From: Zygnema cylindricum | Taxonomy: Eukaryota > Streptophyta > Zygnematophyceae > Zygnematales > Zygnemataceae | NCBI GenBank assembly: GCA_037447655.1 | Contig: JBBHKE010002673.1 | Span: 1-64,000, forward strand | Reading direction: 5' to 3' | Length of the DNA: 64,000 bases | In this document: piece by piece, positions 1,057 through 63,175 of the stretch | Layout: each line of letters begins with the position of its first letter | How positions within the stretch are numbered: position 1 is the stretch's first letter | Notes under the pieces: generated by a model | Seen by the model: only the letters and a program-made list of their open reading frames with translations | The model's database searches: none | Told to the model about the DNA's origin: nothing | Program-made: the position numbers and the translations under genes

Positions 1057-2051
1057 TGCAATTTTGTGTCCCCCATTGGAATACAAAATACATGAAACCT
1101 CTAGATAGTTTTCAACTAGGATCATTGCTACCCAAGCAGACAAACACATAATCTGACTACACCCCTGCGCAGTCTGGACTCCCTTGAGTCCACAGCAAAA
1201 AAAATCTCTGAAAACGACCAACCAGGCGATTAATAATCAAGTTGCGAAGATGCCAATATTTATACACGCTTATTGGGAGACAGGCGGTTACCTCCTCAAT
1301 TCTCTAAGTCCCAAACCCCTCTCACAACCCCTCTCTACAGATGTACGAACCAATCAAAAGACAGTATAGTAAAGAAAGGTACAGAGGCCGATGTACTTTC
1401 TGTACGGCTTGTGTACGACAAGGCCATAGAGTGGACATCTGTGTCTTTCGGACTTGTTTTCATTCTCCCCGAGATTCGTGCTTCCCAATGATATCTTGCC
1501 ACGTGTCGCCAGGTCATGTCACGCCCTAAAACCGCCAAAGCGCCCATTCCGTGATCTCGGCTAAGATGACTGCCGTCGGATCCAAACAGGCTTTTAATAC
1601 AGGCCGTTCAAAAATAAGTGTCTGGTACATTTGTTGCGTGGGGACTTTTGTTCGCACTATATTCTAACTAGTCTCTATGTCCTTTATTTTTGTTTTCCAT
1701 TAATCGCATTAATGTTCCCAACTAATGTTTAAATAGTATTCCATCCCTATGTAGTCTAACGAACTTTTACGATAGATCAGTAAGAGCTGACGCCTAAGCC
1801 TTACTCTGCCGTTCGGATGTTCGAGTCTTGTCGGACTCAACCTTTTTTTAAGAGTGACTTATGTCACTCTTCAGTCCTGCCTATGGAGCTGAGGCAGCCA
1901 TGGCTCCACCGCCCTCTCTTTCTTTCGATGACTACAACAAGTATGGGGGCTAGAGAGAGAAGGTGGAGGCACGCTGCCTATGCGTTATCTTTTGTTAAAG
2001 ATTAATCTATTAAGACCTAGAAAATACCTTGTAAATATAGTGATTTCAACA
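1057..2051 (-). repeat. Solo copia LTR ('LTR1L') with 5-bp target duplication GAGAG
   Basis: 995 bp beginning TGCAATTTTG and ending TTTCAACA in plus orientation (TGTTGAAA...TTGCA in element sense). GAGAG lies on both sides (1052-1056 and 2052-2056), so this is an LTR inserted into LTR F. It is collinear with LTR1R, 5,536 bp to the right. It holds a TATA box (TATAAATA on minus near 1258), CACGTG near 1500, the tRNA-like module at 1761-1850 and the conserved hairpin near 1886-1982. Confidence 0.8.
1761..1850 (+). promoter_or_regulatory. tRNA-like module in LTR1L, antisense to the element
   Basis: A D-arm/A-box-like CAGTAAGAGCTG (about 1778-1789) is followed by a B-box-like GTTCGAGTCTT (1819-1829) and a run of seven T (1843-1849), the order and spacing of a Pol III type-2 unit. 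The T stem is poorly paired, so it is not a functional tRNA gene. Confidence 0.55.
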
Positions 2052-2225: not shown

Positions 2226-4198
2226 CTCACATTATTTTCTAGTCTAATTTTAGTTTATCTTTTAATCCACACTTTTCTCTCAAGTATATTAGCTTGGGAG
2301 AGGGTACAGGTTTGGTCATCATATCAGCCACCATTTCCCCATCAGCTTTATACACAAGATTCACAACTTTGTTTTGAACTTTTTTCCCTCACAAAACTTA
2401 AGCTTATATCCATGTGTTTAGCCTTAAAATGATGTTTTGGATTGGCTGCAATCGCAATGGCAGCCTGATTATCACAAAATACTTTATGCACTCCTTTCTT
2501 CATGTACCCCAGTTATTGCAATAAAGACTTCACCCACATCAGCTCTTTCACAGTAGAACAAAAGGCCATGAACTCAACCTCCATAGTGGACTGAGCAACC
2601 ACCTTTTGATGCTTGCTACTCCAATAGCAAACACCTTCCACCACATATAACACATACCCAAAAGTGCATCTTCTCATAGGTGCATCCCCATACTTGGCAT
2701 CACTCCAAGTAGTGATGTCAGTGTTCTCCCCTCCCAAATTCAACCATAGATCCCTGGTCCCCACTACATATCTCATGACTCTCTTGGTTGCCTCCCAGTC
2801 TCTCTTCCTAGGATCACTAAGACTTTTATTGAGGATTCTAAGTGTTGATGCTATGTCCGATCTATTGCAATTTATAAAGTAGATTAAGCTTCCTACAACT
2901 TGTCTGTAAGGAATAGACTTCATAAACTTTCTCTCTTTTGGACTCATCTGATCATCTAGGATTATCACTCCTCCTTCTACACTCCCTTCACTTACTTTCT
3001 TCAAGTCCATGCGAGTGGTACAACTATTTGCCTTTTCCATCTGGAATCTCTCAAGCATAGTTCCTATAGCTTCTTTCTGAGTAAGTGTGATTATCTTGTT
3101 CCCCCTATCTCTTTCCATTTGAATTCCCAAAATGTATTTTGCCTCCCCTAGATCCTTTATGTCAAATCTGCTTCTAAGATCTTTCTTTAACTTATTGATC
3201 TTTTCCATAGACTTACTTAATACCAGCAAATCATCCACATAAATTTAACTAAAAATTACTCCATTATCCTCCTCTAACATGTGAATAGAGTGGTCAGAAC
3301 TGATCCGGATATATCCTACACCGGTGAAAAAGTCATCTAGTTTCTTATTCCATTGTCTGGGAGCCTGCTTCAGTCCATATGAGGACTTCATGAGTCTGCA
3401 GACTTTGCTCTCCTCTCCTTCCTCTACAAATCCCTCTAGTTGTCGCACGAAGATTTCTTCCTCTAGCTCACCGTTGAGGAAGGTGGTCTTAATATCCATT
3501 TCGTGTTTTTCCATGTCTTCCGCTGCAGCTAGACTGAGGAGAATCCTTACAGACAGGAACCGAACCACCAGAGCAAGAGTCTTCTCATAATCTATCCCCT
3601 CCTTTTGAGTGAACCCCTTTGCTACCAACCGGGCCTTATATCTCTCAATGGTATTATCTGGGTTTAATTTCAGTTTATACACCCATTTGCACCCAATCGG
3701 TTTTCTGTCTGGAGGGCAGTCCACCAGCTCCCAAGTATTCGCTTCCATGATGGAGGCCATCTTGTCATTTATGGCTCTAACCCATCTGTCTTTCTCAGGA
3801 CTGTCCATTGCCTCCGAGTATGACTGAGGCTCATCTGGGTGGGAGAGCTTTGTTACCTTGTGAGCAGCCTGTCTTTCCTGTAGTCTCTTGATGTTTCTTT
3901 GTCCTTTCTCAAAGTGTGAAGTTGGAATGGAGGGAAGTCTTGGGTTCCTCCCTATTGTCTCATTGGCTCCCTTATCCATGGAAACGTGTTCCGACTCCTC
4001 CTCTTTCTCCTCAGAGTGTATAGAGATATGAAGAGATTCTGGCATATCTCCCCTATCTTGGATCTCCCCTGAATTTGCAATCACATTTTCACTTACGTCC
4101 CTTTTGGAAAGATCAGACTCCTCCTCACTATCGGACTCAAAACTGATGCTGATTTTCTTAGTATATTTGAAGGGATCAAATGACTTCCCTGCATCCAT
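2226..4198 (-). pseudogene. Copia reverse transcriptase - RNase H, degenerate
   Basis: On the minus strand 3245-4198 carries the copia RT start (KWVYKLKLNPDNTIERYKAR, then GLKQAPRQWNKKLDDF). The catalytic YVDDLL is at about 3223-3240, just past an in-frame stop near 3246. 2513-3238 carries the rest of RT and RNase H, with TTWSDAKYGDAP and AQSTMEVEF. The frame stops again near 2513, but homology (DNQAAIAI) continues to about 2400. Expected activities are RNA-dependent DNA synthesis and RNA strand removal in cytoplasmic particles. Stops make it non-functional. The plus-strand copia at 42.3-44.2 kb is a close relative. Confidence 0.85.
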
Positions 4199-4236
4199 GA
4201 CTACTAGATGCTTTACCAGAATGATATCTTATTTTT

Positions 4237-5470
4237 CTAAGTCGAGACTCTGTATCCTTTGACGTCCTCATCATATCTCACAAAATACCCCAGTTTCCCT
4301 TTAGCATCTAGTTTCCACTTTTTCTTATCTGCGTCAAGACTGTAAACTTGACTACCGAAAACTTTCAGGTGAGAAATATCTAGATTCCTTCCAACCCATC
4401 TCTCATAAGGTTTATTTTCTTTAACGGCTGTAGTGAGGACGATATTTTTAATGTAGTTAACACAGTTCATGGCTTCTGCCCAAAATCTTCTTCCTATTTT
4501 CTTGTCAGCCAACATACTACACACACTATCTCCCAGAGTCCGATTCAACCTCTCAGCTATCCCATTTTGTTCTAGATTATTTGGTACAATTTTTTGATGT
4601 TGAACTCCCTCATCTCTCAAGTATTCCTCAAATTGGTTAGTGGTGTACTCTCCCCCATTATCACTCCTTATTCGCTTAAGTGGGGTTCCATGCAACTTCT
4701 CACTCCAAGCTTTATACTCTTTGAAGTACTTTGTGCTTCAGTATTTGTTTTTAGGAAATAGACTCTAGAGTATCTAGACCATTCATCAGTAATTGTCACC
4801 ATATACCTTTTTCCTACGACTGAAGGTACTCTTGGTGGTCCCTTGATATCTTTGTGCACCCGATTTAATACTTTCTCACTTCTATATGTGGTAGTTCTTC
4901 GAAAGGGGAGTCTGTGAGCCTTACCTTGGGCACAACCACTACAATCATCCATCATTTCATGATCCTCAAACTGAATGCCTTCTACTACACCGAGCTTCTT
5001 CATTTCCCTCATCCTATCAAAATGCACATGCCCCAACCGCTTATGCCAAATCATCAAGCTCGGAACACCACCATAGTAAGCACTCTTCTTTACATTACTC
5101 AGGTTAAGCCTAAACATTCCTTGGTTGCCCTTATCTGCAATGAAGTAGACTGCATCTCCATACTTAGCTCTAAAGACTCCCTTTCTAGTGAAGGTATCAA
5201 AATCTTTATCATCTAATACAGAGGTAGAGACAAGATTTTTACTCAACTGAGGAACGTAGAGCACATCTGAGAAGGTGCTTATAGAAGTCTTACCCTCCAC
5301 TAAGACTTTTAGATCTATCGAGCCAACTAGATTTGTACTAACTACTCTCCAATCCCAATACTCTATTTCTACATAAGCAATCTTTCTTAGCTTAGTGAAG
5401 AGGTGTTTGTCACGACACATATGCATGGATGCACCTGAATCAATAATCCATCCTTCTTTTGGAGCTTTTC
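4237..5470 (-). pseudogene. Copia protease end, GAG-pre-integrase and integrase, degenerate
   Basis: The protease signature DSGAS lies just upstream of MHMCRDKHLF (about 5415-5455). A GAG-pre-integrase zinc-binding stretch follows (WHKRLGHVHFDRM ... CSGCAQGKAH, 4668-5426). The integrase core shows HKDIKGP and RSDNGGEY, with the catalytic Glu in NGIAERLNRTL (4237-4695). A frameshift near 4690 separates the two parts. In the family this enzyme inserts the cDNA and makes 5-bp target duplications, as seen around LTRs here. Confidence 0.85.
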
Positions 5471-6580
5471 GAATGGCTCCAAGAGCACATTTTTTTTTTG
5501 TAAGGGATCTCCTTTTCCTCTAGATTGTTGTCGAGAAGGAGCTCCCAATCCTCCTCCTCAGAGGACTCGTCCTCCTCAGTCTCTCCTTTTACTCGTGTGA
5601 CCACGAGTGCCTTGTTTTTCCCTTTGGAAGAACCCCCTCCACGGTTTTCTTGGAGCCTCAGCTCTGACAGCTTGGTGCAATCAGCTATGAAGTGTCTCGG
5701 CTTTTTGTAAAAATGACAAAGACCCATTGGGGGCCTAGGTTCTCTAGATAGGTCACTTTTTCCTTTGAATCTGTTGTACGGCTTCTTCGGATCCGTCTTC
5801 CACAGGTCCGTTTCGGCAGCTAAGGCTTAAACGCTATTACCTCATCTATGAATCTCAATGGTGTTTTCCTGCACGAGTATTATTCGGACAACTGTGTTCC
5901 ACTTCCAATAACTGTCATCCATTTCCTGCACTCAGTACACTATGTTCTCATACAACTCAAGCAACTTCCTGATGAGGGTGTTAACTTTCATCTTCATTGT
6001 ACCTGTCCATCCAACACTTTCCATCTCCATACACAAACAAGAGAGATCATTACAATAGTCTAACATTTCTCCTTTTTTGTAAGTGTAACTCCCCAACCTT
6101 TGCTCGGTCAGCTAGAGCTCTTGAATGGTACCAGCTCTAAAGATCTCCACTAAAGTCATCCACAACCCCTCGGCCTACAAAATGTGAAGATGGGAGGTCG
6201 CTAAGGCTTGACTGAGGTGCCTTAGAATGAAATGCATGTCATTCATGTTTGTGTTTTCCCTTATTTGAATATCATTTTCCTCGGTCTTCACGGCCACCGC
6301 TCCGGGTGCCGTGGCTATAGGAGTGAGAGGGGTTTCCTTTCCTTTCCTTTTTTTGGACACACTGTTGTCCCCATCGTTTGTCTCCTCCGTTGGAGCATAT
6401 GCTGCTCCAGAAAACCTCATTCCACCAAACCCCAGTGGGTTTCCCAAAAATGGACGTTTCACTTGTCCACTAACAATACCCCACTATCTTTTTTCACACA
6501 AAGCCCCTGTCATCATTGCTTCCCAATAAATGAACCCAGATCCGTTGAAGATGGGTATCCTAGAGGGTGGGCCCATAACC
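5440..6580 (-). pseudogene. Copia gag with nucleocapsid remnant, degenerate
   Basis: Gag starts next to LTR1R. 6175-6462 encodes KRPFLGNPLGFGGMRF and the start of the gag core, while 5440-5727 holds a nucleocapsid remnant (CHFYKKPRHFIADC, a zinc knuckle whose second Cys is Tyr) followed by an acidic stretch. The middle (5,730-6,170) is recognisable only in broken frames. The probable start codon is the AUG inside the primer-binding site (6566-6580), because an upstream AUG at the LTR end runs into a TAA after four codons. Confidence 0.7.
6566..6580 (-). promoter_or_regulatory. Primer-binding site for initiator tRNA-Met (anticodon arm)
   Basis: Minus-strand GGTTATGGGCCCACC directly abuts LTR1R. 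It is complementary to the anticodon arm of eukaryotic initiator tRNA-Met rather than to its 3' CCA end. This is the half-tRNA priming arrangement established for Drosophila copia. Confidence 0.8.
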
Positions 6581-7587
6581 TGCAATTATGTGTCCTCCAT
6601 TAGACTACAAAATACAGGAAGCCTCTAGATTGTTTTTGACTAACCCGATTTCAACTAGGATCATTGTTACCCAAGCAAACAAACACACAATCTGACAGGG
6701 CCCCTGTGCAGTCTGAACTCCTTGAAGTCCACACCAAAAAGAATATCTGAAAACGCCCAACCAGGCGATTGATTATCAAGTAAATATGCCAATATTTATA
6801 CAAGCTTATTAGGAGAGAGGAGGCTACCACCTAAATCCTCTAAGTCCCAAACCCCTCTCACAACCCCTCTCTACAGATGTACGAACCAATTAAAAGACTG
6901 TATAGTAAAGAAAGGTACAGAGGCCGATGTATTTTTTGTACGGCCTGTGTACGACAAGGCAATGGAGTGGACATCTGTCTCCTTCGCACTTGTCTTCATT
7001 CTCCTCGAAATTCGCGCTTCCCAATGATATCTTGCCACGTGTCGCCAGGTCATGTCACGCCCTAAAACGGCCAAAGCGCCCATTCCGTGATCGCGGCGAA
7101 GATGACTGCCGTCGAATACAAACCGGCTTTTAATACAGGCCATTCAAAAATAAATGTTCGGTACATTTGTTGCGTGGGGACTTTTGTTCGCACTATATTC
7201 TAACTAGTCTCTATGTCCTTTATTTGTGTTTCCCATTAATCAGATAAATGCTCCCAACTAATGTTTAAATAGTATTCTATCCCTATATAGTCTAACAAAC
7301 TTCTACGATAGATCGGTAAGAGCTGACGCCTAAGCCTCGCTGTGCCGGGCAGATGTTCGAGTCTTGCAGGACTCAACCTTTTTTTAAAAGTGACTTAAGT
7401 CACTCTTCAGTCCTGCCTATGGAGCTGAGGCAGCCATGGCTCCACCGCCCTCTCTTTCCTTCAGTGACTACAACAAGTATAAAGGCTAGAGAGAGAAGGT
7501 GGAGGCAGGCTGCCTATGCGTTATCTTTTGTTAAAGATTAATCTATTAAGACCTAGAAAATTCCTTGTAAATCTAGTGATTTCAACA
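6581..7587 (-). repeat. 5' LTR ('LTR1R') of the copia at 2.2-6.6 kb
   Basis: 1,007 bp from TGCAATTATG to TTTCAACA, followed by GAGAG. It has the same modules as LTR1L: TATA box near 6793, GTAC-rich box near 6900-6960, CCACGTGTC near 7037, tRNA-like segment 7297-7386 and the conserved hairpin near 7422-7518. Confidence 0.8.
7297..7386 (+). promoter_or_regulatory. tRNA-like module in LTR1R, antisense to the element
   Basis: CGGTAAGAGCTG is followed by B-box-like GTTCGAGTCTT and a T7 run (7379-7385), collinear with the module at 1761-1850. Confidence 0.55.
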
Positions 7588-8352
7588 GAGAGGTGCCTTA
7601 AAAATTCGAAGTCCTAAACTCCCTTTCTAAACCCTCTACTACTACTGTACCTAACCAATCATATGACTGTAAATTACAAGAAGGTACAGGTGTCGGTGTA
7701 AAGTACAAGAAGCTACAAGTGCCGCTGTAAAGTAAAAAAAGCTACACGTGCCGCTGTACTTTTTGTACCACCATGGTACAGCATGGCCGTCCGGCTGACA
7801 CCTGTCAGTTCTTGAGCCATAGTTGCTCTCCCGTAATATTCGGTGTCCACTCCTGACTTGCCATGTGTTGTCCGCCGACATTAGCTCGCAAACCGCCAAA
7901 TCTCCATTCCGGTAGGCCAACTCCTCTGTAAGCCGTCGATCTTGAATCGACATTTGATTTCCTCCGTTGATTTTAAATGTCGTTTCGTTTATTCTTGTGG
8001 TCAAGTATATTGTGCGGTCTTTTTTGTTTTCATGTTCATTCTGTGCCATAAAACGTTAAATGGAATATGTCGCCGCGTAATGTTTAAATATTAATCACAC
8101 CCATTATACTTTAACGTTCATTAAGACCTAGCGGATAAGGTGAACGGCTATGCCGTACGGCGGTCTTGTGGAATGTCATAAAATCAAATCTTTGTCGTGA
8201 CCGCCTATCTTTTGCAGGGGCTGTGTATTCTGTTGTCTCCTTGTCTACCTGAGGCAGCCATAGTTGCCTGCCAGTCCTCAATGACTACGACAAGTATGAG
8301 GACCGAAGTAAGACCATAGACTAAAGAGATAGAATATAAAATACCTTTTTCA
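7588..8352 (-). repeat. LTR 'F', 5' (U3) part
   Basis: This continues the LTR begun at 806-1056 in the other duplicate: GTAC-rich repeats at 7660-7790, an ACGT-type box region, a tRNA-like segment (8120-8214) and the conserved GACTACGACAAGT hairpin (about 8251-8330). The end is eroded; no clean CAACA terminus is visible. Confidence 0.6.
8120..8214 (+). promoter_or_regulatory. tRNA-like module in LTR F with paired outer stem
   Basis: CCTAGCGGATAAGGTGAACG resembles a tRNA-Arg type D-arm. GGCGGTC (8159-8165) pairs perfectly with GACCGCC downstream, enclosing a T-arm-like ATCAAATC. TTTT follows (8209-8212). The stem sequence differs from LTR A but is still complementary. Confidence 0.5.
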
Positions 8353-16884: not shown

Positions 16885-17562
16885 TGCAATTCTGTGTCCT
16901 CCATTGGACTACAGAATACAAGAAGCCTCTAGATAGTATTTAACTAACCCACTTTAAGCCACGACCACTGCTGCCCAAGAAGGCAAACTGACAATTTGAC
17001 TGCACCCCTATGCAGCCTGGACTCCCCTGAGTCCGTAGCAAAAAGAATCACTGAAAACAGCCAACCAGCCGATAAGTTATGAGTCGGCAAAAATGCCAAG
17101 TTTATACAAACTCTCAAAGAGAGAGAGGTTCCTATCTACCAAAATTCTCTAAGTCCTAAATCCCTCTCACAAACCCTATCTATTGAAGTACGAACCAATC
17201 GGATCACTGTAGAGTACATAAAAGTACTATGGGCGATGTACTTTCTGTACGGCTCATGTACGGCAATGCCATTAAGTGGACGCGTGTCCACTTTTCACTT
17301 GTCCTTATGTTCGCCGAATTCCTGCGACCAAATGTCATCCCTCCGCGTGGCGCCACGTCACGCCACGTCCATAAACGCCAAAAGTGACCATTCCGTGATC
17401 TCGGCATTGATGTACGCCGTCGGATCAGATTCGATATTAAATGTCCGCCGTCGAAAACAAATGTCCGATTCGTTTGTTTGCGTGCGAGATAATGTTCGCA
17501 CTATATAATACTTGGTTCCATGTTCTTTCGTTCGTAATTCCGTTAATCGAATTCATAGACGT
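16885..17562 (-). repeat. LTR 'B', left part, inserted in the gypsy element (target site GGAAT)
   Basis: Begins TGCAATTCTGTGTCC after GGAAT (16,880-16,884) and contains the GGACTCCCCTGAGTCC hairpin (about 17,019), a TATA box (17,100) and GTAC and ACGT boxes. It is cut at CATAGACGT, where LTR A1 starts. Its other end is at 39,838, again followed by GGAAT, so both parts once formed one LTR. Confidence 0.8.
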
Positions 17563-18737
17563 TGAAACTCTGAGACCTCCATTGGCCTTCAGAGTATGCA
17601 GATCCAAAAGAAGCTAATCTAGATAGTGCCGACTCCAAGTTAATATAAACCCAAATGACTAACCCCTTGACAGTCACAATCCCAATATAGATTCACCCCT
17701 GTGAAATAACACTTTCTGTGTGCTCAGTTCCACCACAGAATGCAAAGTTAGAATATGAGATTTGGACACATTCACCCACTTTGACTTTCCCTTATAAATG
17801 CAGCCACCCTGGCAGACAAAAACTCTGACCGACTCCACCCCAGTGTAGCCTGGACTCCCCTGAGTCCGCAGCAAAAAGAATCACTAAAAATGGTCAAGTA
17901 AATTGATAGTTATGGCTGCCCAAAGTTAGCCATTTATACAAGATGCTCTCTGGGAGAGGCGACTACCTACCCAAAATTTTCTAAGTCGTATTCCCTCTCT
18001 AAAACTCTATCTACTCAAGTACGGCACCAATCAAATTACTGTATCGTACAGAAAAGTACAGGTGCCGGTGTACTTTCTGTACGGCCATTGTACGACATGG
18101 CCAAAATGTCGACACGTGTCAAATCAGGATTAGTTCCTGTAATCTCCGGAATTCCCGTAATCCAATGTTATCACGCCACGTGTCATTTGACGTGGCAAAG
18201 ACCGTAAAACGCCAAAAGTACCTTTTCCGTGATCGCGGCGCCTATCGCGGCCGTCCGATCAAAACCGGCTATAATCCTAGCCGCTGAAATTCGATGCGCG
18301 GTATTTGTTTCGATATCGAAACAAATGCGCGGTATCCGTTCTGTCCCCATACCGTACTGCGTACTAATTCAAACTGTATCTATGCACGACGTATCTATTT
18401 GCCGTTAAACGAATTAATTTACATAAGACAATTTATATATTTATCAAACCTTCCATAACGTAGTATTAGTCCTAGACTTAACGGCTAAAGCTAACGGCTA
18501 CGGCGACTTGACGGACAGTAGGTACCAGGATCAACTCCTGGGTCCGTCAAGTATATTTTGGTAAATCTACCTAATCCACCCCCTGCCTTCTCTAGTGAGC
18601 TTAGGCAGCCATGGCTCTAGCTCCCTATCAAGCCTCCAGTGACTACAACAAGTGTGGGTGGCTTAGAGAAGGGAGTTAGGGACAGACTGCCTTTGCTCTT
18701 TTTCTATAAAGACCTAGAAAATACTCAAATATCAACA
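17563..18737 (-). repeat. LTR 'A1' (1,175 bp)
   Basis: From TGAAACTCTGAG to ATATCAACA, the same length as LTR A2 at 35,152-36,326 and nearly identical. Its right end, where an internal region should start, instead meets host DNA (CAAAGGTCC...), and the flanks are not duplicated. TATA box on minus at 17,932; R hairpin at 17,852-17,867; CCACGTGTC/GACGTGGC boxes near 18,176-18,197; a 24-bp perfect palindrome at 18,302-18,325 (half-site ATTTGTTTCGAT). Confidence 0.85.
18475..18560 (+). promoter_or_regulatory. tRNA-like module in LTR A1
   Basis: ACTTGACGGAC pairs over 11 bp with GTCCGTCAAGT downstream. Between them is a T-arm-like hairpin with a five-base stem and seven-base loop (CCAGG-ATCAACT-CCTGG; one stem mismatch-free in A2 with ATCAATT). 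TTTT follows at 18,556-18,559. It resembles the acceptor/T-arm half of a tRNA, read antisense to the element. Confidence 0.6.
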
Positions 18738-26962: not shown

Positions 26963-27044
26963 ATGGCCTCCGGAGTCGAATCGGCCATTCTTGCTCTCTG
27001 TCGACAACACAATGAGGTATGCATGTGGATTTTACTTTGTGGAA

Positions 27045-27305
27045 GAATATTTTAGCATAAAAAATGGTTCAGTATGTGGACGAATAGTTTAGTATGGTTT
27101 AGTGTGTGGAAGGATGTTTTAGTATGTGGAAGAATAGTTTAGTATGTGGAAAAACATTTTAGTATGTGGAAGAATAGTTTAGTATGTGGTGGAATGTTTT
27201 AATATGTGGAAGAATAGTTTAGTATGTGGAAAAACATTTTAGTATGTGGAAGAATAGTTTAGTATGTGGTGGAATGTTTTAATATGTGGAAGAATGTTTT
27301 AGTAT
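27045..27305. repeat. Minisatellite in RPC6 intron 1
   Basis: Degenerate units of about 20 bp (TTTAGTATGTGGAAGAATAG and variants), roughly a dozen in tandem. Confidence 0.85.
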
Positions 27306-27544
27306 GCCTGCACTCTCTCCTCAATTCTGTTTTACATAATTTTTTCATTTGTTAGTATTTTATTGATACCTTCATATGAAACCTTTGAAACCTGAACAAC
27401 TTATACTTTTTTTAAACCCGTAGAACCCCTTTTTCTTTGATGTTTTCATGGTTCCTCGTAGAACCTTTTTTACTTTGAAGCTATTTGAAATGTCAAAGCA
27501 TGTGGTATCAAATAATTGTTCTTGATGAACGGCACGGGCCATCA

Positions 27545-31796: not shown

Positions 31797-33146
31797 TGAA
31801 ATTCTATGGGTTCCATTCCCCCACAGAATTCGCAGATCCAAAAGAAGCTAATCTAGATAGTGCCGACTCCAAGTTGATATAAACCCAAATGACTGACACC
31901 CTGAAAAACAGAACCCCAATACAGTTTAGCTAATCTAGATAGTGCCAACTCCAAGTTGATATAAACCCAAATGAATAACACCCTGCCCTGTGAAAGAAGA
32001 CTTTCTGTGTACTCAGTTCCACCACAGAATGCAAAGTTAGAATATGAGTTTTGGATAACATTCCACACTTTGACTTTCCCTTAGAAATGCAGCCACCCTG
32101 GCAGACTACACCCCTGTGTAGCCTGGACTCCCCTGAGTCCGCAGCAAATAGAATCACTGAATTTGCTCCCCTGGACTCCCCTGAGTCCGCAGCAAATAGA
32201 ATCACTGAATTTGCTCCCCTGAGCATTAAATTATGGCTGTTCAAAGACAGCGAATTTATACAGAATGCCTCAAGGAGAGAGGGCTTCCAAAAATGGCTAA
32301 GTACTAAGAACCTACTCAAATCATCATACACTATAAAATGTACATACAAAGTACGATAGCCGCCGTACTTTATGTACGGAATTATACGGCACCACTCTCG
32401 GTCTGCCACGTGGCAAATAAGTCGTCGCCATTCTGTCCCTTTCTTCTCCGGCAACCTATAGGATGGTGCCACGTGTCATTTTCCTCCATTTTCGCAAAAC
32501 GTCGCCAAAATAGCCATTCGGGCAGGCTGGCACTCACGCGTGCCGCCCGTTTGAAATACGGCGATCAGCGTCAACTGTTCGATCTTGACGACGCGCCAAA
32601 TCTTTTTCCGACCGTTGAATTTCTAAGGCCGTCGTCCTTTTTCACGTTCGTTGAAATTCTACCGACGTCAATTCGGTCCATTAAATGAAAGCGTCGTCAC
32701 TAACGTTGTATTAAAATATCGAGCCACATACGTCTATCATTGTCAACGCCTTAGTGGATAAGGCGAAGGATTACTAGTAGTTCTGTGCAAAGGCATCATT
32801 ATGGTCATCTCTTAGTTGGTATTCTCTACGTATAAATCTTTATATACCTATTGTACACTATATATCTCAACATTGGTCCTAGACTATAGGATAAAGCTAT
32901 CGGCTGTAAGTGATTTGACGGACAGTAGGTACCAGGATCAAATCCTGGGTCCATCAAATACCCTTTTTTTTGGTAAATCTACCAAACCTACTCTCTGTCT
33001 CTCTAGAGAGCTTTGGCAGCCATGACTCCCTCTCTAGCCTTCAGTGACTACGACAAGTGTGGGGGTTTGGAGAAGGGAGTTAGAGACAGACTGCCTCTGC
33101 CTTTTTCTATCCCAATATAGACCTAGAAAATACACAAATATCAACA
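31797..33146 (-). repeat. Solo copia LTR 'C' with target duplication GTCTT
   Basis: 1,350 bp from TGAAATTCTATGG to ATATCAACA, flanked on both sides by GTCTT (31,792-31,796 and 33,147-33,151). It has the family modules: R hairpin GGACTCCCCTGAGTCC twice (about 50-bp tandem duplication at 32,121-32,220), TATA box near 32,256, CCACGTGGC and CCACGTGTC boxes near 32,406-32,477, tRNA-like segment 32,876-32,971 and the conserved hairpin near 33,008-33,094. Confidence 0.9.
32876..32971 (+). promoter_or_regulatory. tRNA-like module in LTR C
   Basis: TTTGACGGAC / GTCCATCAAA outer stem (one G-T pair) around CCAGG-ATCAAAT-CCTGG, followed by T8 (32,964-32,971). A separate tRNA-Arg-like D-arm (CCTTAGTGGATAAGGCG) lies upstream at about 32,750-32,766. 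Confidence 0.6.
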
Positions 33147-33282
33147 GTCTTATCGTATCTTATCTAAACGTATCTTTTTCTTTCTTTTTTTTCATTTTGT
33201 TGCCATCAACTTTATCTCCGTACCATGAAATCTATTCCTATTTGCAGAGTAAAAACAGGAAAGTTTATATGCTTTTTGAATT

Positions 33283-33990
33283 TAAAACAATGCATTAGAT
33301 GAACTGAAATAATAATTGCATCACACATTTCATTTAGCACCTTACTTATCACAAATCTGATCAAAGATTTTATCCACCTCCTCCCCTTTTCATCCAACCA
33401 GAATCTACTTTCCCCTTTGCATTTCCAACAGTCAGCCCCATCCCCAACCTGCAACACATACCCGGATGATAACCCTTTTACAGGCACATCTTCACAAGCG
33501 ACATCACACCAAGTAGTGATGTCAAATCCATCCACCCCCAAATATTCCCAAAAAACACTAGTCCCCACTAAGCTCCTCATAAGATCTACATCTTCCGTAC
33601 TCATATTTTTATCCATGATAATTACCCCATTTTCTGAACTTCCCTCACTCTCTCCCATGGAATTCTTTCCACTATCACTTTCTAATTTAATTCCCAATAA
33701 ATATTTCTTCTCCCCTAAACCTTTAATCAAATATTTCTCTTCTCCCCTATCCTTTAAAACCTCTTCGAGTTTCACTTCTCCCCTTCCTCGGAATCCGTTG
33801 AAGTCTCCCTTTCCGACCAGTTTTCTGTTTCCCTATTGTCTATAAAATTATCCTCATTAATTTTATCTTTCCCGTTTTCACTTATGGATCCTAGATCTGA
33901 CTTTCTCATTTCTAAATCATACACTCTACACTCCTCGATATCCTCAAGTACCTCTTCTCTTTTTACTTCCCTTATACCTCCAAAGCACAC
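33283..33990 (-). pseudogene. Copia A internal remnant: eroded RNase H-like ORF, left copy
   Basis: Homologous to the right-hand copy (36,392-37,153) but split by a one-base shift near 33,775 and truncated at the RPC6 exon. It keeps FDITTWCDVACEDVP, the RNase H region of copia, with large gaps where the RT palm and integrase should be. Confidence 0.7.
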
Positions 33991-35147
33991 TGTTGCCTTC
34001 GAGCAATTTTTGTGTACTTTTCTCTCTTCCCTATTCTACCGATGTGAAGAAGCTCCAATTTTTCTTCATCCTCTTTCTCCTCTTCCACTTCGTCCTCCTC
34101 ATCCACATTCCAACTTCTAAGTTTTTCCAAACAAGGGCATTCCTCCATATAATGACCCGGTTCCCTACAAAAGAAGCAAACACCTTTTTTCAAAGCTCCC
34201 GTGTCTTTTCCTCTCCCTCTTTTTCCACCAAAGTTCCGATAAGGTTTACCTTTGTCTTTCTTCCTCTCATCACGCTTCCGCTCGTCACCACCGTTCCTCT
34301 CATCACGCTTCCGCTCGTCACCGCCGTTCCTCTCATCACGCTTCCGCCAATCTCCACCAGCTGAAAAAGCATTGACCCTGTCCCTTCCCCTACGAAGCTC
34401 AAAAGTGCTTTCCCTTACAAGAATTATCCCCATGGTAATGCTCCAAGTCCACGAGGAGACATCCATTCCCTGCATACGGTAAATGATGTCTTCGTACTCA
34501 TATGGAAGCTTTATGATTAGTGTATTAATCTTTCTCTCCTCAGATTCTACATATCCCGCACTAGCAAGCTCAACATATAACCCAGCAATATCATTGCAAA
34601 ACTGTATCATGCTACGGCCTTTATAAACATAGGCCTCTATCTCTTGTCTAACTAACTGCTGCCTCTGTATAGTCTCACTCTTATAAATCTGAATTAGTGT
34701 TTCCCATATCTCTGAAGACTTGACTAGACTTAAAAGAGTGATAGCTATAGACTTAGACACATATCTAAGTATGAGATGTTTTGCTATAGTGTTTTTATAT
34801 TCCCATATTTTCTTGTCATTTTCTTCAGTTTTAATCCCTACATGTGGTACCATAGCTGAGAGCCTAGCTCCCCTCACCATAGGTGTCCCTTTATCCTTCT
34901 CCCCTATTTCCCTTTCCACGGTCATGATCTTCCCTTCACCTTCCGTTGCACCTGAACTCCGGTTGGATTTCTGGGCAGCCCCAGATGATTCTCCATAGTG
35001 ATCTCCTCCAAAGCCCGGTGGCGGACACCTCACTTGTCCCGAAACAATTCCCCATAAGTGCTTCTCGAAAAGCAATCCCTCCATCGTAAACTCCCAATAA
35101 GTGAAGTGTGTTCCATCGAACATAGGCACCCTAGATGGTGGGCCCAT
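33972..35147 (-). CDS. Gag of non-autonomous copia A, left copy
   Basis: An open frame of about 391 codons from the AUG in the primer-binding site (35,147-35,145); an AUG eight codons upstream, inside the LTR hairpin, is also in frame. Order: GTHFTYWEFTMEGLLFEKHL (UBN2/DUF4219-like start), a gag core (IWETLIQIYKSETIQRQQLV), a charged repeat RDERNGGDERK (2.5 units) and a zinc knuckle CFFCREPGHYMEEC with correct C-x2-C-x4-H-x4-C spacing. Gag forms particles and binds RNA. The frame is intact and identical in protein to the right copy, while pol is almost gone, so it resembles gag-only (TR-GAG type) elements. Whether it is expressed is unknown. Confidence 0.8.
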   Translation of the reverse strand: MGPPSRVPMFDGTHFTYWEFTMEGLLFEKHLWGIVSGQVRCPPPGFGGDHYGESSGAAQKSNRSSGATEGEGKIMTVEREIGEKDKGTPMVRGARLSAMVPHVGIKTEENDKKIWEYKNTIAKHLILRYVSKSIAITLLSLVKSSEIWETLIQIYKSETIQRQQLVRQEIEAYVYKGRSMIQFCNDIAGLYVELASAGYVESEERKINTLIIKLPYEYEDIIYRMQGMDVSSWTWSITMGIILVRESTFELRRGRDRVNAFSAGGDWRKRDERNGGDERKRDERNGGDERKRDERKKDKGKPYRNFGGKRGRGKDTGALKKGVCFFCREPGHYMEECPCLEKLRSWNVDEEDEVEEEKEDEEKLELLHIGRIGKREKYTKIARRQQCALEV

Positions 35148-35151
35148 AACC
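35136..35151 (-). promoter_or_regulatory. Primer-binding site, copia A left unit
   Basis: Minus-strand GGTTATGGGCCCACCA, 16 bases complementary to the initiator tRNA-Met anticodon arm, directly after LTR A2. The AUG within it is in frame with gag. Confidence 0.85.
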
Positions 35152-36326
35152 TGAAACTCTGAGACCTCCATTGGCCCTCAGAGTATGCAGATCCAAAAGA
35201 AGCTAATCTAGATAGTGCCGACTCCAAGTTAATATAAACCCAAATGACTGACCCCTTGACAGTCAGAATCCCAATATAGATTCACCCCTGTGAAATAACA
35301 CTTTCTGTGTGCTCAGTTCCACCACAGAATGCAAAGTTAGAATATGAGATTTGGACACATTCACCCACTTTGACTTTCCCTTATAGATGCAGCCACCCTG
35401 GCAGACAAAAACTCTGACCGACTACACCCCAGTGTAGCGTGGACTCCCTTGAGTCCGCAGCAAAAAGAATCACTAAAAATGGTCAAGTAAATTGATAGTT
35501 ATGGTTGCCCAAAGTTAGCCATTTATACAAGATGCTCTCTGGGAGAGGCGACTACCTACCCAAAATTTTCTAAGTCCTATTCCCTCTCTAAAACTCTATC
35601 TACTCAAGTACGGCACCAATCAAATTACTGTGTCGTACAGAAAAGTACAGGTGCCGGTGTACTTTCTGTACGGCCATTGTACAACATGGCCAAAATGTCG
35701 ACACGTGTCAAATCAGGATTAGTTCCTGTAATCTCCGGAGTTCCCGTAATCCAATGTTATCACGCCACGTGTCATTTGACGTGGCAAAGACCGTAAAACG
35801 CCAAAAGTACCTTTTCCGTGATCGCGGCGCATATCGCGGCCGTCCGATCAAAACCGGCTATAATCCTAGCCGCTGAAATTCGATGCGCGGTATTTGTTTC
35901 GATATCGAAACAAATGCGCGGTATCCGTTCTGTCCCCATACCGTACTGCGTACTAATTCAAACTGTATCTATGCAGGACGTATCTATTTGCCGTTAAACG
36001 AAATAATTTACATAAGACAATTTATATATTTATCAAACCTTCCATAACGTAGTATTAGTCCTAGACTTAACGGCTAAAGCTAACGGCTACGGCGACTTGA
36101 CGGACTGTAGGTACCAGGATCAATTCCTGGGTCCGTCAAGTATATTTTGGTAAATCTACCTACTCCACCCCCTGCCTTCTCTAGTGAGCTTAGGCAGCCA
36201 TGGCTCTAGCTCCCTATCAAGCCTCCAGTGACTACAACAAGTGTGGGTGGCTTAGAGAAGGGAGTTAGGGACAGACTGCCTTTGCTCTTTTTCTATAAAG
36301 ACCTAGAAAATACTCATATATCAACA
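35152..36326 (-). repeat. LTR 'A2' (1,175 bp) shared by two tandem copia A units
   Basis: It is the 3' LTR of the right unit and the 5' LTR of the left unit, and nearly identical to A1 and A3. The conserved modules are present: TATA, ACGT boxes, palindrome, tRNA-like segment 36,058-36,156 and ACTACAACAAGT hairpin (about 36,190-36,281). Confidence 0.9.
36058..36156 (+). promoter_or_regulatory. tRNA-like module in LTR A2
   Basis: ACTTGACGGAC / GTCCGTCAAGT stem around CCAGG-ATCAATT-CCTGG, followed by TTTT; collinear with A1 and A3. Confidence 0.6.
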
Positions 36327-38314: not shown

Positions 38315-39321
38315 TGAAACTCTGAGACCTCCATTGGCCCTCAGAGTATGCAGATCCAAAAGAAGCTAATCTAGATAGTGCCGACTCCAAGTTAATATAA
38401 ACCCAAATGACTGACCCCTTGACAGTTAGAATCCCAATATAGATTCACCCCTGTGAAATAACACTTTCTGTGTGCTCAGTTCCACCACAGAATGCAAAGT
38501 TAGAATATGAGATTTGGACACATTCACCCACTTTGACTTTCCCTTATAGATGCAGCCACCCTGGCAGACAAAAACTCTGACCGACTACACCCCAGTGTAG
38601 CGTGGACTCCCTTGAGTCCGCAGCAAAAAGAATCACTAAAAATGGTCAAGTAAATTGATAGTTATGGTTGCCCAAAGTTAGCCATTTATACAAGATGCTC
38701 TCTGGGAGAGGCGACTACCTACCCAAAATTTTCTAAGTCCTATTCCCTCTCTAAAACTCTATCTACTCAAGTACGGCACCAATCAAATTACTGTGTCGTA
38801 CAGAAAAGTACAGGTGCCGGTGTACTTTCTGTACGGCCATTGTACAACATGGCCAAAATGTCGACACGTGTCAAATCAGGATTAGTTCCTGTAAACTCCG
38901 GAGTTCCCGTAATCCAATGTTATCACGCCACGTGTCATTTGACGTGGCAAAGACCGTAAAACGCCAAAAGTACCTTTTCCGTGATCGCGGCGCATATCGC
39001 GGCCGTCCGATCAAAACCGGCTATAATCCTAGCCGCTGAAATTCGATGCGCGGTATTTGTTTCGATATCGAAACAAATGCGCGGTATCCGTTCTGTCCCC
39101 ATACCGTACTGCGTACTAATTCAAACTGTATCTATGCAGGACGTATCTATTTGCCGTTAAACGAAATAATTTACATAAGACAATTTATATATTTATCAAA
39201 CCTTCCATAACGTAGTATTAGTCCTAGACTTAACGGCTAAAGCTAACGGCTACGGCGACTTGACGGACTGTAGGTACCAGGATCAATTCCTGGGTCCGTC
39301 AAGTATATTTTGGTAAATCTA
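38315..39321 (-). repeat. LTR 'A3', truncated, 5' LTR of the right copia A unit
   Basis: Collinear with A2 (shift 3,163 bp) until TTTGGTAAATCTAC, where it is replaced by LTR B sequence. The outer end with the conserved hairpin and TGTTGA terminus is missing. The tRNA-like module at 39,221-39,313 is retained. Confidence 0.85.
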
Positions 39322-39838
39322 CATAAACGCCAAAAATGATCATTCCGTGATCTCGGCATTGATGTACGCCATCGGATCAGATTCGATATTAAATGTCCGC
39401 CGTTGAAAACAAATGTCCGATTCATTTGTTTGCGTGCGAGATAATGTTGGCACTATATAATACTTGGTTCCATGTTCTTTCGTTCGTAATTCCGTTAATC
39501 GAATTCATAGACGTAACATTGTTTAAGTAAATATCAAACCTCATATATGCTAACGGACTTCTACGACAGACTGGTTAGAGCTATCACCTAAGCCGCGCTC
39601 TACCGGTCGGAGGTTCGAGTCCTGCCCGACTCAACCTTTTGTTGAGAGTGACATAAGTCACTCTTTAGCCCAGCCTGCTTAAGCTAGGACAGCCATGGCT
39701 CAGCCACCCTCTCTATCCCTCAATGACTACGCCAAGTATGGTGGGAAGAGAGAGGAGGCGGAGGCTGGCTGTCCACCTTTTCTATTTTGTACAAAGTTCA
39801 GACCTAGAAAATACCATATAAAAATAACAATTTCAACA
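39322..39838 (-). repeat. LTR 'B', right part, followed by GGAAT
   Basis: 39,322-39,514 repeats 17,370-17,562 (193 bp, six differences) and then continues past the A1 insertion point to the LTR end TTTCAACA at 39,838. GGAAT (39,839-39,843) matches the left flank at 16,880. It contains the best tRNA-like module of the window (39,560-39,642) and the conserved hairpin (about 39,690-39,775). Confidence 0.8.
39560..39642 (+). promoter_or_regulatory. tRNA-like module in LTR B (closest to a real tRNA)
   Basis: ACTGGTTAGAGCT (39,570-39,582) matches tRNA D-arms/A box. GGTCGGAGGTTCGAGTCC (39,605-39,622) has a perfect B box GGTTCGAGTCC; GTCGG pairs with CCGAC after the loop. TTTT follows at 39,637-39,640. 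No acceptor stem with the 5' side is visible, so I do not call a tRNA gene. Confidence 0.6.
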
Positions 39839-44264: not shown

Positions 44265-45315
44265 TGTAGAAATTAAGGGTCTTTTAAAGTATTTTCTAGG
44301 TCTGAATAGAAATAAGAAAGAAGCCGAGGCAGTCTGCCTCTAACTTCTCTCTCCAACTTCTCAAACTTGTCGCAGTCACTGAGAAATTGGAGAAGGAGCT
44401 AGAGCCATGGCTACCTAGGATATCCAGAGGTTTACGGGAAAATATATTTTAGTTAGGGGTTTAATTTACTAAAAGATATGTGCCGGCGATAGGATTTGAT
44501 CCTGGCACCTGCCGGCCGGCAGATAGTTGGTAGCCGGTAGCCTTAGCCGTTAAGTGTAGGAGTAGTGTTATGTACTATGTGGTTTGATAATTACTTAAAC
44601 ATTTATACGTAGGATAGTTCATTTAAACTGTAACTGAGACATATATCCAGTAAATGTAAAAGTACAGATTCCAGTACGGATAAGAAACCAATACCGCGCA
44701 TTTAATTCTTTAGTGAAACGAATACCGCGCATGTATTTATTACGGCTACGATTAAATGTGAATTTAATCGGACGGCCGGAATTAACGTCGAGATCGCGGA
44801 AGAGGATTTCGGCGGTTTGTGGTCATCGCCACATCGGATGACACGTGGCGGAATGACATTAGATCGCGGCATCTCCGATGATTAAGGGAGCGAATCCGGA
44901 CATACCACGTGTCGACATTTTGGCCATGTCGTACAATGGCCGTACATAAAGTACACCGGCAGCTGTACTTTTGTGTACGAAATTGAAATCTGATTGGTTC
45001 CATACATAAGTAGATAGAGTCTGTGAGAGAGATAGGACTTAGAAAAATTAGAAGATAGGACCCTCTCTCCCTGAGAGCTTCTGCACAAAAGGTCAACTTT
45101 GACCCTCCATAACTTACTGCTTAGGGGAGCAAATTTAGAGATTCTATTTGCTATCGACTCAGGGGATTCTTGTCTTCACAGGGTTGAAGCTGGTCAGAGT
45201 TTTTGTCTGCCAGGGTGGCAGTTATTTTTTGCTAAAACACAAAGGGGTCAGGGTTATCCTAGAGGCTTTTTGGAAGCTGTCCACTCTGAGGACTTATGGA
45301 GGTCTCAGAGTTTCA
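44265..45315 (+). repeat. 3' LTR 'K' (1,051 bp)
   Basis: TGTAGAAATTAAGG to GAGTTTCA. In sense order: ACTTGTCGCAGTCACTG hairpin (44,330-44,415), antisense tRNA-like segment, ACACGTGGCG box (44,843), GTACTTTTGTGTAC box (about 44,966) and the ACTCTGAGG-ATGGAGG-TCTCAGAG terminal hairpin. Right flank CCGAT begins a 31-bp stretch also found (inverted) at 12.03 kb. Confidence 0.85.
44469..44560 (-). promoter_or_regulatory. tRNA-like module in LTR K, with a stem of unrelated sequence
   Basis: On the minus strand TGCCGGC pairs with GCCGGCA around a T-arm-like AGGATCAAATCCT; TTTT follows (AAAA at 44,470-44,473 on plus). The stem shares no sequence with LTR A yet keeps pairing. Confidence 0.6.
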
Positions 45316-59973: not shown

Positions 59974-60871
59974 TGCAATTCTGTGGTCTCCATTGACCCA
60001 CAGAAATGGGCAGCCTATTTAAAGCCTCTAGGATAATGTTTGCCCCTTTCACTTTCCCACTGAATAAGTGCCACCTAGGCACACAAATATTTTGACCACC
60101 CTCACCCCCGTGAGGACTCGACTCCCCTGAGCCAAACGCAAAAAGAATCAATGAATTTGCTCCCCTGAGCAGTAAGTTATGGCTGGTCAAAGATGACTTT
60201 TATAGTTACAAGCTCTCTTAGAGAGAAGTACCTAAATTTCACTAAGTCCTAGTCTATCTACTCACGTCTACCTACTACTAAACCCTAGTCCAATAGGAAC
60301 CGTGTATAGTACAAAAAGGTACAGTAGTCGATGTACTTTTTTTACGGCTATTGTACGACATGCCCTTCAAGGTGACGCCTATCAAATCAGGAGCCATGGT
60401 TTCTTCTCCCATCTTCCACGGTATCTAATAATGTAGCGCCACGTGGCATAGTGTGACGCTATCTCCAAAGGCCGCCAAAAAACTCATTATGGTTGGTAGC
60501 TGCAATGACGGCCGTCCGATCAATTAAATTTACATGGTTGGGATTCGCGTATGTGCATTAATTGTTTCACATGCGCCTCTTTGTCAAATTGGTGTGTTTT
60601 AGCCGACGTGTTAAACTATAAGTACTTATCAAACCTCATAAGTGTGTTGTTTCATCAATGCCTTCATGGTTAAGGCGCACAGCTATATTGAGCCTGCAGG
60701 TCGCAGGTTCAAATGTCGTGACACCCATTTTGGTAAAATGCTCTCAACTCCAATGTGCCACCTTCTAAATATGGCGACACCCATGGCATGTCTTTGATCC
60801 TCTCTCTCTCTCTCTCTCTTTAGATTCTAACTAAAATCGAGAAGTGAACTATTAATTACCTCTTTTCAACA
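59974..60871 (-). repeat. Copia-type LTR 'H'
   Basis: From TGCAATTCTGTGG to TTTCAACA. The terminal hairpin TTCTGTGG...CCACAGAA surrounds CAATGGAG on the minus strand. An R-type hairpin (GACTCCCCTGAG), GTAC and GCCACGTGGC boxes and a tRNA-like segment are present. The ACTACAACAAGT hairpin is replaced by a CT repeat. Flanks CTTTA and ATAAT do not match, so boundaries or insertion history are uncertain. Confidence 0.6.
60655..60733 (+). promoter_or_regulatory. tRNA-like module in LTR H
   Basis: CATGGTTAAGGCG (A-box/D-arm-like) and CGCAGGTTCAAATGTC (B-box-like), about 40 bp apart, then TTTT at 60,728-60,731. Confidence 0.6.
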
Positions 60872-61319: not shown

Positions 61320-62037
61320 TGTTGAAAATCATGTATTTTCTAGGTCTGAATAGGAAAACGAAAAGGAGAAAGTCAGCAAAGGCAGCCTGCTTCTCGCTCC
61401 ATTCTTCAGTCCCCATACTTGTTGCAGTCACTGAAAACCGAAGAGAGAGCTAGAACCATGGCTGCCTATGCTGTCCAATGAGACAGACTAGATACGTAGT
61501 TTGTATCAAAAGGTGATTGCCGCCACCAGGAATTGATCCTGGTACCTTTCGTCCGTCAACCTGGCCGGTAGCTTTATCATATAGGATAGGAATAGTGCTA
61601 AATTATGTAGGGTACGATAATTATATAAACATTAGCGCCGCAATATGTTTCATTTAACTGATTACGGGACGGAATGTATACGGAAATGAATTTGACCGCA
61701 CGAATTCCAGACCGCACGGAATTAACGAAACGACATTTTATTTCGACGACGAGTATTAAATGTCGATCTTCATCGAACGGCTGTGATAGGAGCCGAGATC
61801 GTAGAAATGGCGTTTTGACGTTTTTGGACGTTGCCACTCCGGATAACACGTGGCAACATCAAACAGGTTTTCGGAATTCTCGGAGCGCAAAAAACAAGTC
61901 TAGATGTGACAAATGTCATCTGTATAGTTATGTCGTACAACTGCCGTACATAAAGTACTCTAGCACCTATACTTTTATATACGGTAAAGTCCTGTGATTG
62001 GTCCGTACTTTAGTAGAAGGGGTTTTGGAGAGGGAAT
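61320..62037 (+). repeat. Copia-type LTR 'I', truncated by LTR J
   Basis: TGTTGAAAATC start, hairpin core ACTTGTTGCAGTCACTG (61,412-61,428), antisense tRNA-like segment (61,508-61,590), ACACGTGGC box (61,846) and GTAC boxes. It ends at GGAAT where LTR J begins; no R/U5 part follows. Confidence 0.75.
61508..61590 (-). promoter_or_regulatory. tRNA-like module in LTR I
   Basis: On minus, ACCAGGATCAATTCCTGGT forms a T-arm-like stem and seven-base loop; TTTT follows (AAAA at 61,508-61,511 on plus). The outer stem is not paired here. Confidence 0.5.
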
Positions 62038-63175
62038 TGTTGAGATTTATGTATTTTCTAGGTCTGTATTAGGATACGAAAAAGGCAGAGGCAGTCTGCC
62101 TCTAACTCCCTTTTCCAAGCCTCCACACATGTTGTAGTCATTGAAGGTTGGATAGGGAGATAGAGCCATGGTTGCGTAGGTCCTCTAGAAAAGACAGGGG
62201 GTAAATTAGGTGGATTTACCAAAAAAGTACTTGACGGACCCAGGAATTGATCGTGGTACCTACCGTCCATCAAATCACCCGTAGCCGTTAGCTTTGTCCG
62301 TTAAGTGCAGGACTAATGGTAACATGTATAGGGTTTGATATATATTTAAACAGTTACACTTACAGATTTCCATTAACTAGGTTAACGGAATATAGAGCAT
62401 AGAATCAGTTGTACCTTAAGTACCGGACGAAACAAATAGTACGGATATTTGTTTCGACGGTCCAGATAAAAAAGTTGATTTGAATCGATGGCTGTGGTAC
62501 GAGCCGAGATTCAAAAATGGCCGCCTTGGCGTTTTTCTGGCGCAGCCACTCCGGATGACACGTGGAAATGCGTTGGAGGATTGCGGGATCTCCGGGACGC
62601 GAGATGATAAGCTAGGATGTGACAAATGTCAAATTATGGCAATGCCGTTCAAGGACCGTAGAGAAAGTACTCCGGCACCTGTACTTTCTTGTATGGTAGA
62701 GTCATACGATTGGTTCGTACCTCAATACTAGCGGGCTTAGAGAGGGGTTTTAGGACTTAAAATATTTTGGTAGGTAGCCACCTCTCTCCCACTGAGCATC
62801 TGTATAAATCGGCAGACTATGCCATTTAATATCAACCCATTTAGTTGACCATTTTCAGTGATTCTTTTTGCTGCGGACTCAAAGGAGTCTAAGCTACACA
62901 AAGGTGTAGTCGGTTAAAGTTTTTGCCTGCCAGGGTGACTACATTTCTAAGGGAAATTCGAAGTGGGTAATGTTATCCAAAGCTCATATTCTAACTTTGC
63001 ATTCTGTAGGGGAACTAAGCATACAAAAATTATTCTTTCACACGGGTGAAGCTATATTGGGAATCAGACTGTCACAGTGTCAATCATTTGGGTTTCTATC
63101 AACTTGGAGGCACTATGTAGATAAGCTTATTCGGATTTGCAATTTCTGGGGGGAAATGGAGCCCACAGAATTATA
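62038..63175 (+). repeat. 5' LTR 'J' of the copia at the right edge
   Basis: 1,138 bp from TGTTGAGATTTATG to CACAGAATTATA (final CA decayed to TA). Order: hairpin core ATGTTGTAGTCATTG (about 62,130), antisense tRNA-like segment, ACACGTGG box (62,557), GTAC box (62,640-62,690), TATAAATC (62,803) and GCGGACTC...GAGTC hairpin. Confidence 0.8.
62220..62315 (-). promoter_or_regulatory. tRNA-like module in LTR J
   Basis: ATTTGATGGAC / GTCCGTCAAGT stem; relative to LTR A two C-to-T changes turn G-C into G-T pairs, so pairing is kept. T6 follows (A6 at 62,221-62,226 on plus). Confidence 0.6.

Follow-up and report, generated by a model that had tools for sequence, protein, structure and literature searches.

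Do the copia LTRs of this locus carry a Pol III promoter directed against the element, and is it a tRNA-like RNA or the promoter that is being kept? The initial annotation of the window (the whole stretch of DNA analysed here, 64 kb) described a tRNA-like module antisense to the element. The parts, their strand, their spacing and their presence over diverged families suggest that a selected antisense Pol III unit of the tRNA-gene type is probably present in U3 of each LTR of this copia lineage.

Data set and contents of the window

The data searched comprised the 64-kb window and 200 kb more from the same 353-Mb genome (2689 contigs). Families are defined as 20 clusters at 80%, and the 39 units found by anchors form the base for the placement and T4 counts. 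Thirty loci picked by module similarity were left out of the anchor and conservation counts; 24 of them, which had no overlap with the other sets, were used as cluster members in the swap tests.

The window holds copia elements (RVT_2, Retrotran_gag_2) and a gypsy-type element (RVT_1, integrase), as well as an m-AAA protease-like gene and a calmodulin-like gene. The calmodulin-like protein shares 40-46% identity with named plant CMLs, which make up most of its named relatives, and 83% identity with an 'lgn' protein; one match is labelled Nematostella. These relatives make a land plant the probable host. The copia element with both LTRs discussed below (element 1) has the following coding region:

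2513..5426, minus strand, copia coding region of element 1 in broken form, with RVT_2, gag_pre-integrs and Pol_BBD; it sets the direction of the element as minus

Another copia element in the window encodes a gag ORF of 399 aa. No homologs of the gag protein were detected at E up to 0.001, and no RVT_2 relatives were found in viral contigs.

Several further repeats were observed. A gag region plus LTR occurs twice in tandem at 33212-39326, with a period of 3163 bp, to the right of a more diverged LTR, and seven more pairs spaced 3.1-3.2 kb were present among the 40 matches scored for one query; together, these pairs and the tandem suggest a gag-only element family. The LTR at 38315-39326 ends by a cut right behind the T-run of its unit. 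The sequences 16885-17562 and 39322-39839 belong to the same LTR family and are two cut copies flanking 21.8 kb of other elements; that they are one split LTR was ruled out by an overlap of 193 bp at 97% identity. A minisatellite with 20-bp units lies at 27031-27306. A small hairpin of the GGACTCCCCTGAGTCC type is found at 17850-17867, at 1174-1191 and in other copies of repeat D6, just downstream of a sense TATA-like box; it is present in most of the 8 D6 copies and is not perfect in all. Furthermore, GGTTATGGGCCCACC occurs directly past the 5' LTR at 35137-35151 and 6566-6580 (minus reading); we take it to be complementary to the anticodon arm of the initiator tRNA, presumably for half-tRNA priming as in Ty5 and Drosophila copia.

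Twelve antisense units in the window

The units of the window, with their parts, are as follows:

1728..1849, plus strand, unit in the 3' LTR of element 1: TATA-like box 1728-1735, A core 1779-1787, B box 1819-1827 (GTTCGAGTC), T7 1843-1849
7264..7385, plus strand, unit in the 5' LTR of element 1: TATA-like box 7264-7271, A core 7315-7323, B box 7355-7363, T7 7379-7385
8083..8213, plus strand, unit in a cut LTR: TATA-like box 8083-8090, A core 8133-8141, B-like AATCAAATC 8182-8190, T4 8210-8213
18432..18559, plus strand, unit: TATA-like box 18432-18439, A core 18483-18491, B box 18529-18537, T4 18556-18559
32839..32971, plus strand, unit: TATA-like box 32839-32846, A core 32889-32897, B box 32936-32944, T8 32964-32971
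36021..36148, plus strand, unit: TATA-like box 36021-36028, A core 36072-36080, B box 36118-36126, T4 36145-36148
39184..39311, plus strand, unit in an LTR cut just past the T-run: TATA-like box 39184-39191, A core 39235-39243, B box 39281-39289, T4 39308-39311
39522..39640, plus strand, unit in LTR 39322-39839, which is without its R/U5 side: TATA-like box 39522-39529, A core 39573-39581, B box 39613-39621, T4 39637-39640
44471..44599, minus strand, unit in a plus-strand element: TATA-like box 44599-44592, A core 44548-44540, B box 44501-44493, T4 44474-44471
60617..60731, plus strand, unit of a divergent family: weak TATA-like box 60617-60624, A core 60668-60676, B-like GTTCAAATG 60707-60715, T4 60728-60731
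61508..61629, minus strand, unit: TATA-like box 61629-61622, A core 61579-61571, B box 61538-61530, T4 61511-61508
62221..62350, minus strand, unit: TATA-like box 62350-62343, A core 62299-62291, B box 62252-62244, T6 62226-62221

The initial annotation reported a B-box-like or T-arm-like segment with a T4-T8 run at twelve sites, and both were found at every one of them. The B box GWTCRANNC is exact in ten of the twelve units, the exceptions being AATCAAATC at 8182 and GTTCAAATG at 60707. A TATA-like box, absent from that first description, lies 50-51 nt before the A core in all twelve (narrow search, 9 positions); for the divergent unit at 60655, the wider search preferred another TATA-like match, 57 nt from the A core. 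The predicted RNAs are 81-100 nt long, and that of the 3' LTR unit of element 1 would extend from about 1762 to 1849, nearly the same stretch as the 1761..1850 first annotated.

All twelve units are located in copia LTRs and, as had been claimed, run against the direction of the element. Indeed, the direction was obtained from the unit's own R/U5 anchor in nine cases and from LTR alignments for the cut LTRs with units 8083-8213, 39522-39640 and 61508-61629; furthermore, the coding pieces of element 1 are on the minus strand and both of its LTR units on the plus strand. The host LTRs are about 1 kb long and the unit lies in U3. In unit 18432..18559, the B box is inside a perfect 5-bp T-arm. The three outer stems quoted in the initial annotation are present: GGCGGTC/GACCGCC in unit 8083..8213, ACTTGACGGAC/GTCCGTCAAGT in unit 18432..18559 and TGCCGGC/GCCGGCA in unit 44471..44599.

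Chance expectation and placement of the unit

A B box followed by T4 gave 12 matches in the window (10 at units, the others at 12793 and 57133), and 100 dinucleotide shuffles of the window gave a mean of 4.0 and a maximum of 11; this excess of three times the shuffled mean is by itself poor evidence. The combination of A core, B box and T4 gave six window matches, all at units, versus 0.01 in the shuffles, and six versus 0 when the TATA-like box was included. In the additional 200 kb, A core, B box and T4 gave 10 matches, nine of them at known units. The tenth (L035:478) lies about 108 bp before a weak hairpin-anchor match (586, E 0.0056), and stretch L035 bears, from 427, a further four-part unit outside the 39 counted.

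Since these patterns were composed after the units had been seen, anchors blind to the unit were used. A profile of R/U5, iterated from window 1110-1340 and run on the window and the 200 kb, had a unit at 32 of its 37 matches (window, 11 of 12; additional stretches, 21 of 25), corresponding to 30 distinct units; two LTRs were matched twice by the profile, and the antisense strand alone was searched there. The distance from anchor to unit is 371-485 bp in 29 of the 32, and two of the 32 score poorly with the profile (E 0.27 and 0.46) and were judged by eye. Among the misses, L041 and L050 are at the end of the sampled stretch, L048 is cut by the stretch end with part of the A core visible, in L047 another LTR begins after 0.4 kb, and in the window the LTR is cut at 17562 by the next LTR, before the unit's place. 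The first claim, that well-preserved copia LTRs of the window carry the module, is borne out by these matches. Four divergent LTRs also bear the unit, as judged by eye. The second anchor, a neighbouring hairpin described below, gave 34 matches at E up to 1e-4, 23 of them outside the window; the unit was seen by eye in all, with an exact B box in 26.

The order of a type-2 (tRNA-type) promoter, namely A box, B box and T4+, is present in the 39 anchor-found units as follows: the A core (at least 85%) in 35, an exact B box in 30 (absent in nine) and T4 in 36 (absent in three), so that single parts reach 30-36 of 39 and all three are found together in 25. At four shifted places in the same LTRs, all three parts occur in 1, 1, 1 and 0 of 39; on the sense strand at the 39 units, the counts are 0 for B, 1 for T4, 0 for A and 0 for all three, and in the shuffled windows the three parts never occur together. 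This excess at the unit, with none on the sense strand, indicates a strand-specific signal. Single parts at shifted places reach 6 of 39 for an exact B box (at -240) and 15 of 39 for T4 (at +130). The 36 of 39 for T4 at the unit compare with 7.5% of upstream 15-nt windows.

RNA structure of the unit

The initial annotation suggested a tRNA mimic and proposed to test covariation. For the D-stem, the arms scored 2.46 with their own partner versus 2.50 with partners swapped between families, that is, no covariation; the T-stem gave a small effect (3.14 versus 2.81, P 0.046, 12 clusters); the outer stem was more stable with its own partner (-9.06 versus -7.24 kcal/mol, 0.4% of 500 swaps, P 0.004). 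Covariation was thus found in the outer stem but not in the D-stem, and only weakly in the T-stem. The outer-stem signal is carried by seven of the 20 clusters (best 11% of swaps), including the three quoted stems, and is unremarkable in the most numerous cluster. The proposal that the outer stems reflect a selected RNA structure is thus supported in part only. The own folds of 11 window units have z values from +0.24 to -4.08; with these values and the seven clusters, a single conserved RNA fold for all units was rejected.

ARAGORN predicted 0 tRNAs in the window and the 30 loci, and the tRNA family RF00005 gave no match at E up to 10 in four units tried. Among four units, a mt-tmRNA match (E 0.29, sense strand) and a tmRNA match (E 4.5) are at chance level. 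At gathering score, Rfam gave no match, 5S included, in the window or in 14 of the 20 additional stretches. A true or pseudo tRNA (no tRNA model match, no D-stem covariation) and a 5S-type unit (Rfam empty at gathering score over the window and 14 of 20 stretches) were therefore rejected, and the suggestion of a tRNA mimic is not supported by the stem scores or by any tRNA model match.

The neighbouring hairpin

A second structure lies just past the T-run of the unit and has equivalents in other LTRs:

1892..1979, no strand assigned, long hairpin whose apical loop is conserved, located 3' of the T-run in antisense reading and followed by a second T4 (1990-1993)

This hairpin has about 30 pairs and the loop ACTACRACAAGT. 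Its arms scored -32.8 with their own partner versus -25.2 with those of others, and none of 500 swaps was equal (33 of the 39 LTRs in 12 clusters, one of the 33 being misplaced). Behind the hairpin, another T4+ run was found in 30 of 33 cases, versus 20% of upstream windows. Mismatches inside the hairpin comprise 45 G.T, 37 A.C and 61 others, with no strand preference. Five divergent LTRs have no such hairpin by eye and keep the promoter boxes. The conserved 16-mer of the loop occurs in viral contigs in 38 stretches, which is the estimated chance level; of these, 0 match the module or U5 models and 4 match the hairpin model, which itself contains the 16-mer.

Unit and hairpin could form one antisense two-part ncRNA gene, composed of a tRNA-type promoter, a leaky first T4, the hairpin of about 30 bp and the second T-run, a reading that we consider unlikely. 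If it were true, a read-through RNA of about 230 nt with a Dicer-type hairpin would be made, comparable to foamy virus U3, which might saturate or steer host small-RNA silencing of the element; a plant retrotransposon would then encode a Pol III counter-silencing or guide RNA of its own.

Spacing and conservation of the promoter parts

In 15 of the 20 families, the best TTTAAATA-like match starts 50-53 nt upstream of the A core (24 positions searched), and an exact TTTAAATA or TTTATATA is present at this distance in nine. The A core is separated from the T-loop by 40-50 nt (20 families, with one A core misplaced), and the T4+ run starts 12-20 nt past the T-loop in 18 of 20. In the largest family, the 5' part of the A core deviates from TRGYNNARNNGG. 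If G18-G19 of a tRNA correspond to the two G's of the A core, as we presume, the TATA-like box starts at about -33. This box might instead serve an antisense Pol II start.

Within U3, the conservation percentiles over the 20 families are 0.98 for the B box, 0.97 for the A core and 0.97 for the TATA-like box; another, neighbouring U3 motif, GCAGCCATGGC, outranks the boxes (0.992). The T-run columns reach a percentile of 0.60 only, because the position of the T-run shifts and only its presence is kept (18 of 20). In the aligned LTR columns of the 16 type-1 LTRs found by anchors, the values are 0.997 for B, 0.932 for T, 0.895 for the TATA-like box and 0.866 for A. Since the families are related, their agreement is not independent copy by copy; the four parts, the strand and the spacing are nevertheless present over families that have otherwise diverged. 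The letters of the promoter are kept and the tRNA stems are not, and hence it is the promoter that is conserved and not a tRNA fold. What was first described as a tRNA-like Pol III module is thus well supported as an antisense promoter with A box, B box and T-run, to which the TATA-like box is added, but not as a tRNA fold.

Preferred reading and rival explanations

The strand and spacing of the four parts, and their recurrence over families, lead us to infer that Pol III uses them. With a TATA-like box some 33 nt upstream of the expected start, then an A box, a B box and a T4+ terminator 12-20 nt past the T-loop, TFIIIC would bind the A and B boxes and TFIIIB the TATA-like box, and Pol III would produce an antisense U3 RNA of about 80-100 nt. 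The useful thing may, with perhaps even chances, be factor binding and short transcription, which would keep U3 accessible or bounded; these are favoured over a tRNA-like RNA because the promoter letters are kept and the RNA body drifts. U3 could thereby be held open, or a chromatin boundary marked, to the benefit of a Pol II promoter that presumably lies about 500 bp away within that LTR.

The boxes could also recruit TFIIIC alone, as extra-TFIIIC or insulator-type sites from which no productive transcription starts. The B box is the best conserved of the four parts, the RNA body and tRNA stems are not kept, and boundaries formed by B2 SINEs, as described in PMC8136502, are a precedent. However, a terminator and a TATA-like box at near-fixed spacing in most families are not required by such a site; being needless there, they argue for transcription, and a mere platform seems unlikely too.

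That the unit is a relic, a tRNA-derived piece that landed reversed in an ancestral LTR and was carried passively by LTR amplification, would fit the origin proposed by Kojima, SINE insertion into an LTR (PMC10886601), and copies of the same family share it by descent. This is improbable given that B box, A core and TATA-like box are at 0.97-0.98 of U3 conservation over 20 families and T4 is present in 18 of them, although the type-1 family alone ranks the TATA-like box and A core at only 0.87-0.90; moreover, no tRNA or SINE body would include the TATA-like box. A stand-alone SINE was likewise rejected, as the unit is found at one place of the LTR and the TATA-like box would be outside the SINE.

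Finally, selection could act on a structure, of RNA or of DNA, that is read in the sense direction, where U3 is part of the 3' end of the genomic RNA; the boxes would then be incidental. This is highly improbable: the neighbouring hairpin covaries strongly and shows no strand preference (G.T 45 versus A.C 37), but the unit's loop letters fit a B box in antisense reading alone (30 of 39 versus 0 of 39), the D-stem is without covariation and the T-stem has hardly any, and the boxes are kept in the five divergent LTRs in which no hairpin is visible.

Comparison with known systems

The closest system is Helenus (PMC10886601, Kojima 2024), a name given to short LTR elements of fungi, animals and Selaginella that lack coding sequence and whose LTRs are tRNA-like. 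These are TRIMs (TRIMp3) of 311-1263 bp, whose boxes A and B are taken as the promoter of the element itself; most fungal Helenus carry PBSs to tRNA anticodon loops, iMet foremost, as do Copia families of those fungi, and 'not a few' Repbase LTRs are stated to resemble part of a tRNA (PMC10886601). As in Helenus, a tRNA-like box A and box B are found here within the LTR. Helenus is coding-free, whereas copia gag/pol pieces are present here (RVT_2, gag_pre-integrs, Pol_BBD and the 399-aa gag ORF); its promoter is taken to drive its own RNA, whereas the present unit runs against the LTR and, as seen in element 1, against pol. The PBS-like stretch of the window would also pair, as we presume, with the anticodon arm of iMet. 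The tRNA-like antisense analogue, regarded as new in the initial annotation, is thus not entirely so, as tRNA-like sequence in LTRs is already published for short non-autonomous elements. The orientation of the promoter is left implicit there, and the word 'antisense' is absent from the main text of PMC10886601.

Cassandra and Ajax carry a 5S rRNA promoter in their LTRs (PMC10886601) and share with the present elements an LTR-borne Pol III promoter with conserved motifs; theirs is 5S-derived and used for the element's own RNA, whereas no 5S match was found here at gathering score (window and 14 of 20 additional stretches). Plant tRNA genes have A and B boxes, a downstream poly(T) and, in some, upstream TATA-like and CAA motifs, with TATA boxes in only 22-32% of angiosperm tRNA genes (PMC11700998). 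The unit resembles them in its A/T-rich upstream region, a TATA-like box in part of the cases, A and B boxes and a poly(T) terminator, and differs in that no tRNA model matches and the D-stem is not kept. Foamy viruses bear Pol III miRNA cassettes of about 150 nt in U3, which yield a hairpin RNA (PMC7693620). A Pol III-type cassette with a hairpin in U3 is likewise predicted here from sequence, but hairpins are the product in foamy viruses, whereas the long hairpin lies here beyond the T4 run.

Significance for the copia lineage

LTR-borne Pol III promoters are already known (Cassandra, Helenus), and it is the antisense placement that appears to be new here; among the matches listed from the open-licence PMC literature, none was seen to describe a Pol III unit placed antisense in copia LTRs. 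Copying of the element's own RNA is the supposed use of the known LTR Pol III promoters, which an antisense one cannot serve, and this makes it unusual. An antisense promoter kept in a protein-coding lineage, over strongly diverged families, would mean that the element profits by another route from Pol III factors or from a short antisense transcript, a possible gain being chromatin held open against silencing. With 1117 genome-wide first-look candidates for one query and 3935 for another (40 of each scored), the lineage may scatter TFIIIC sites through the genome.
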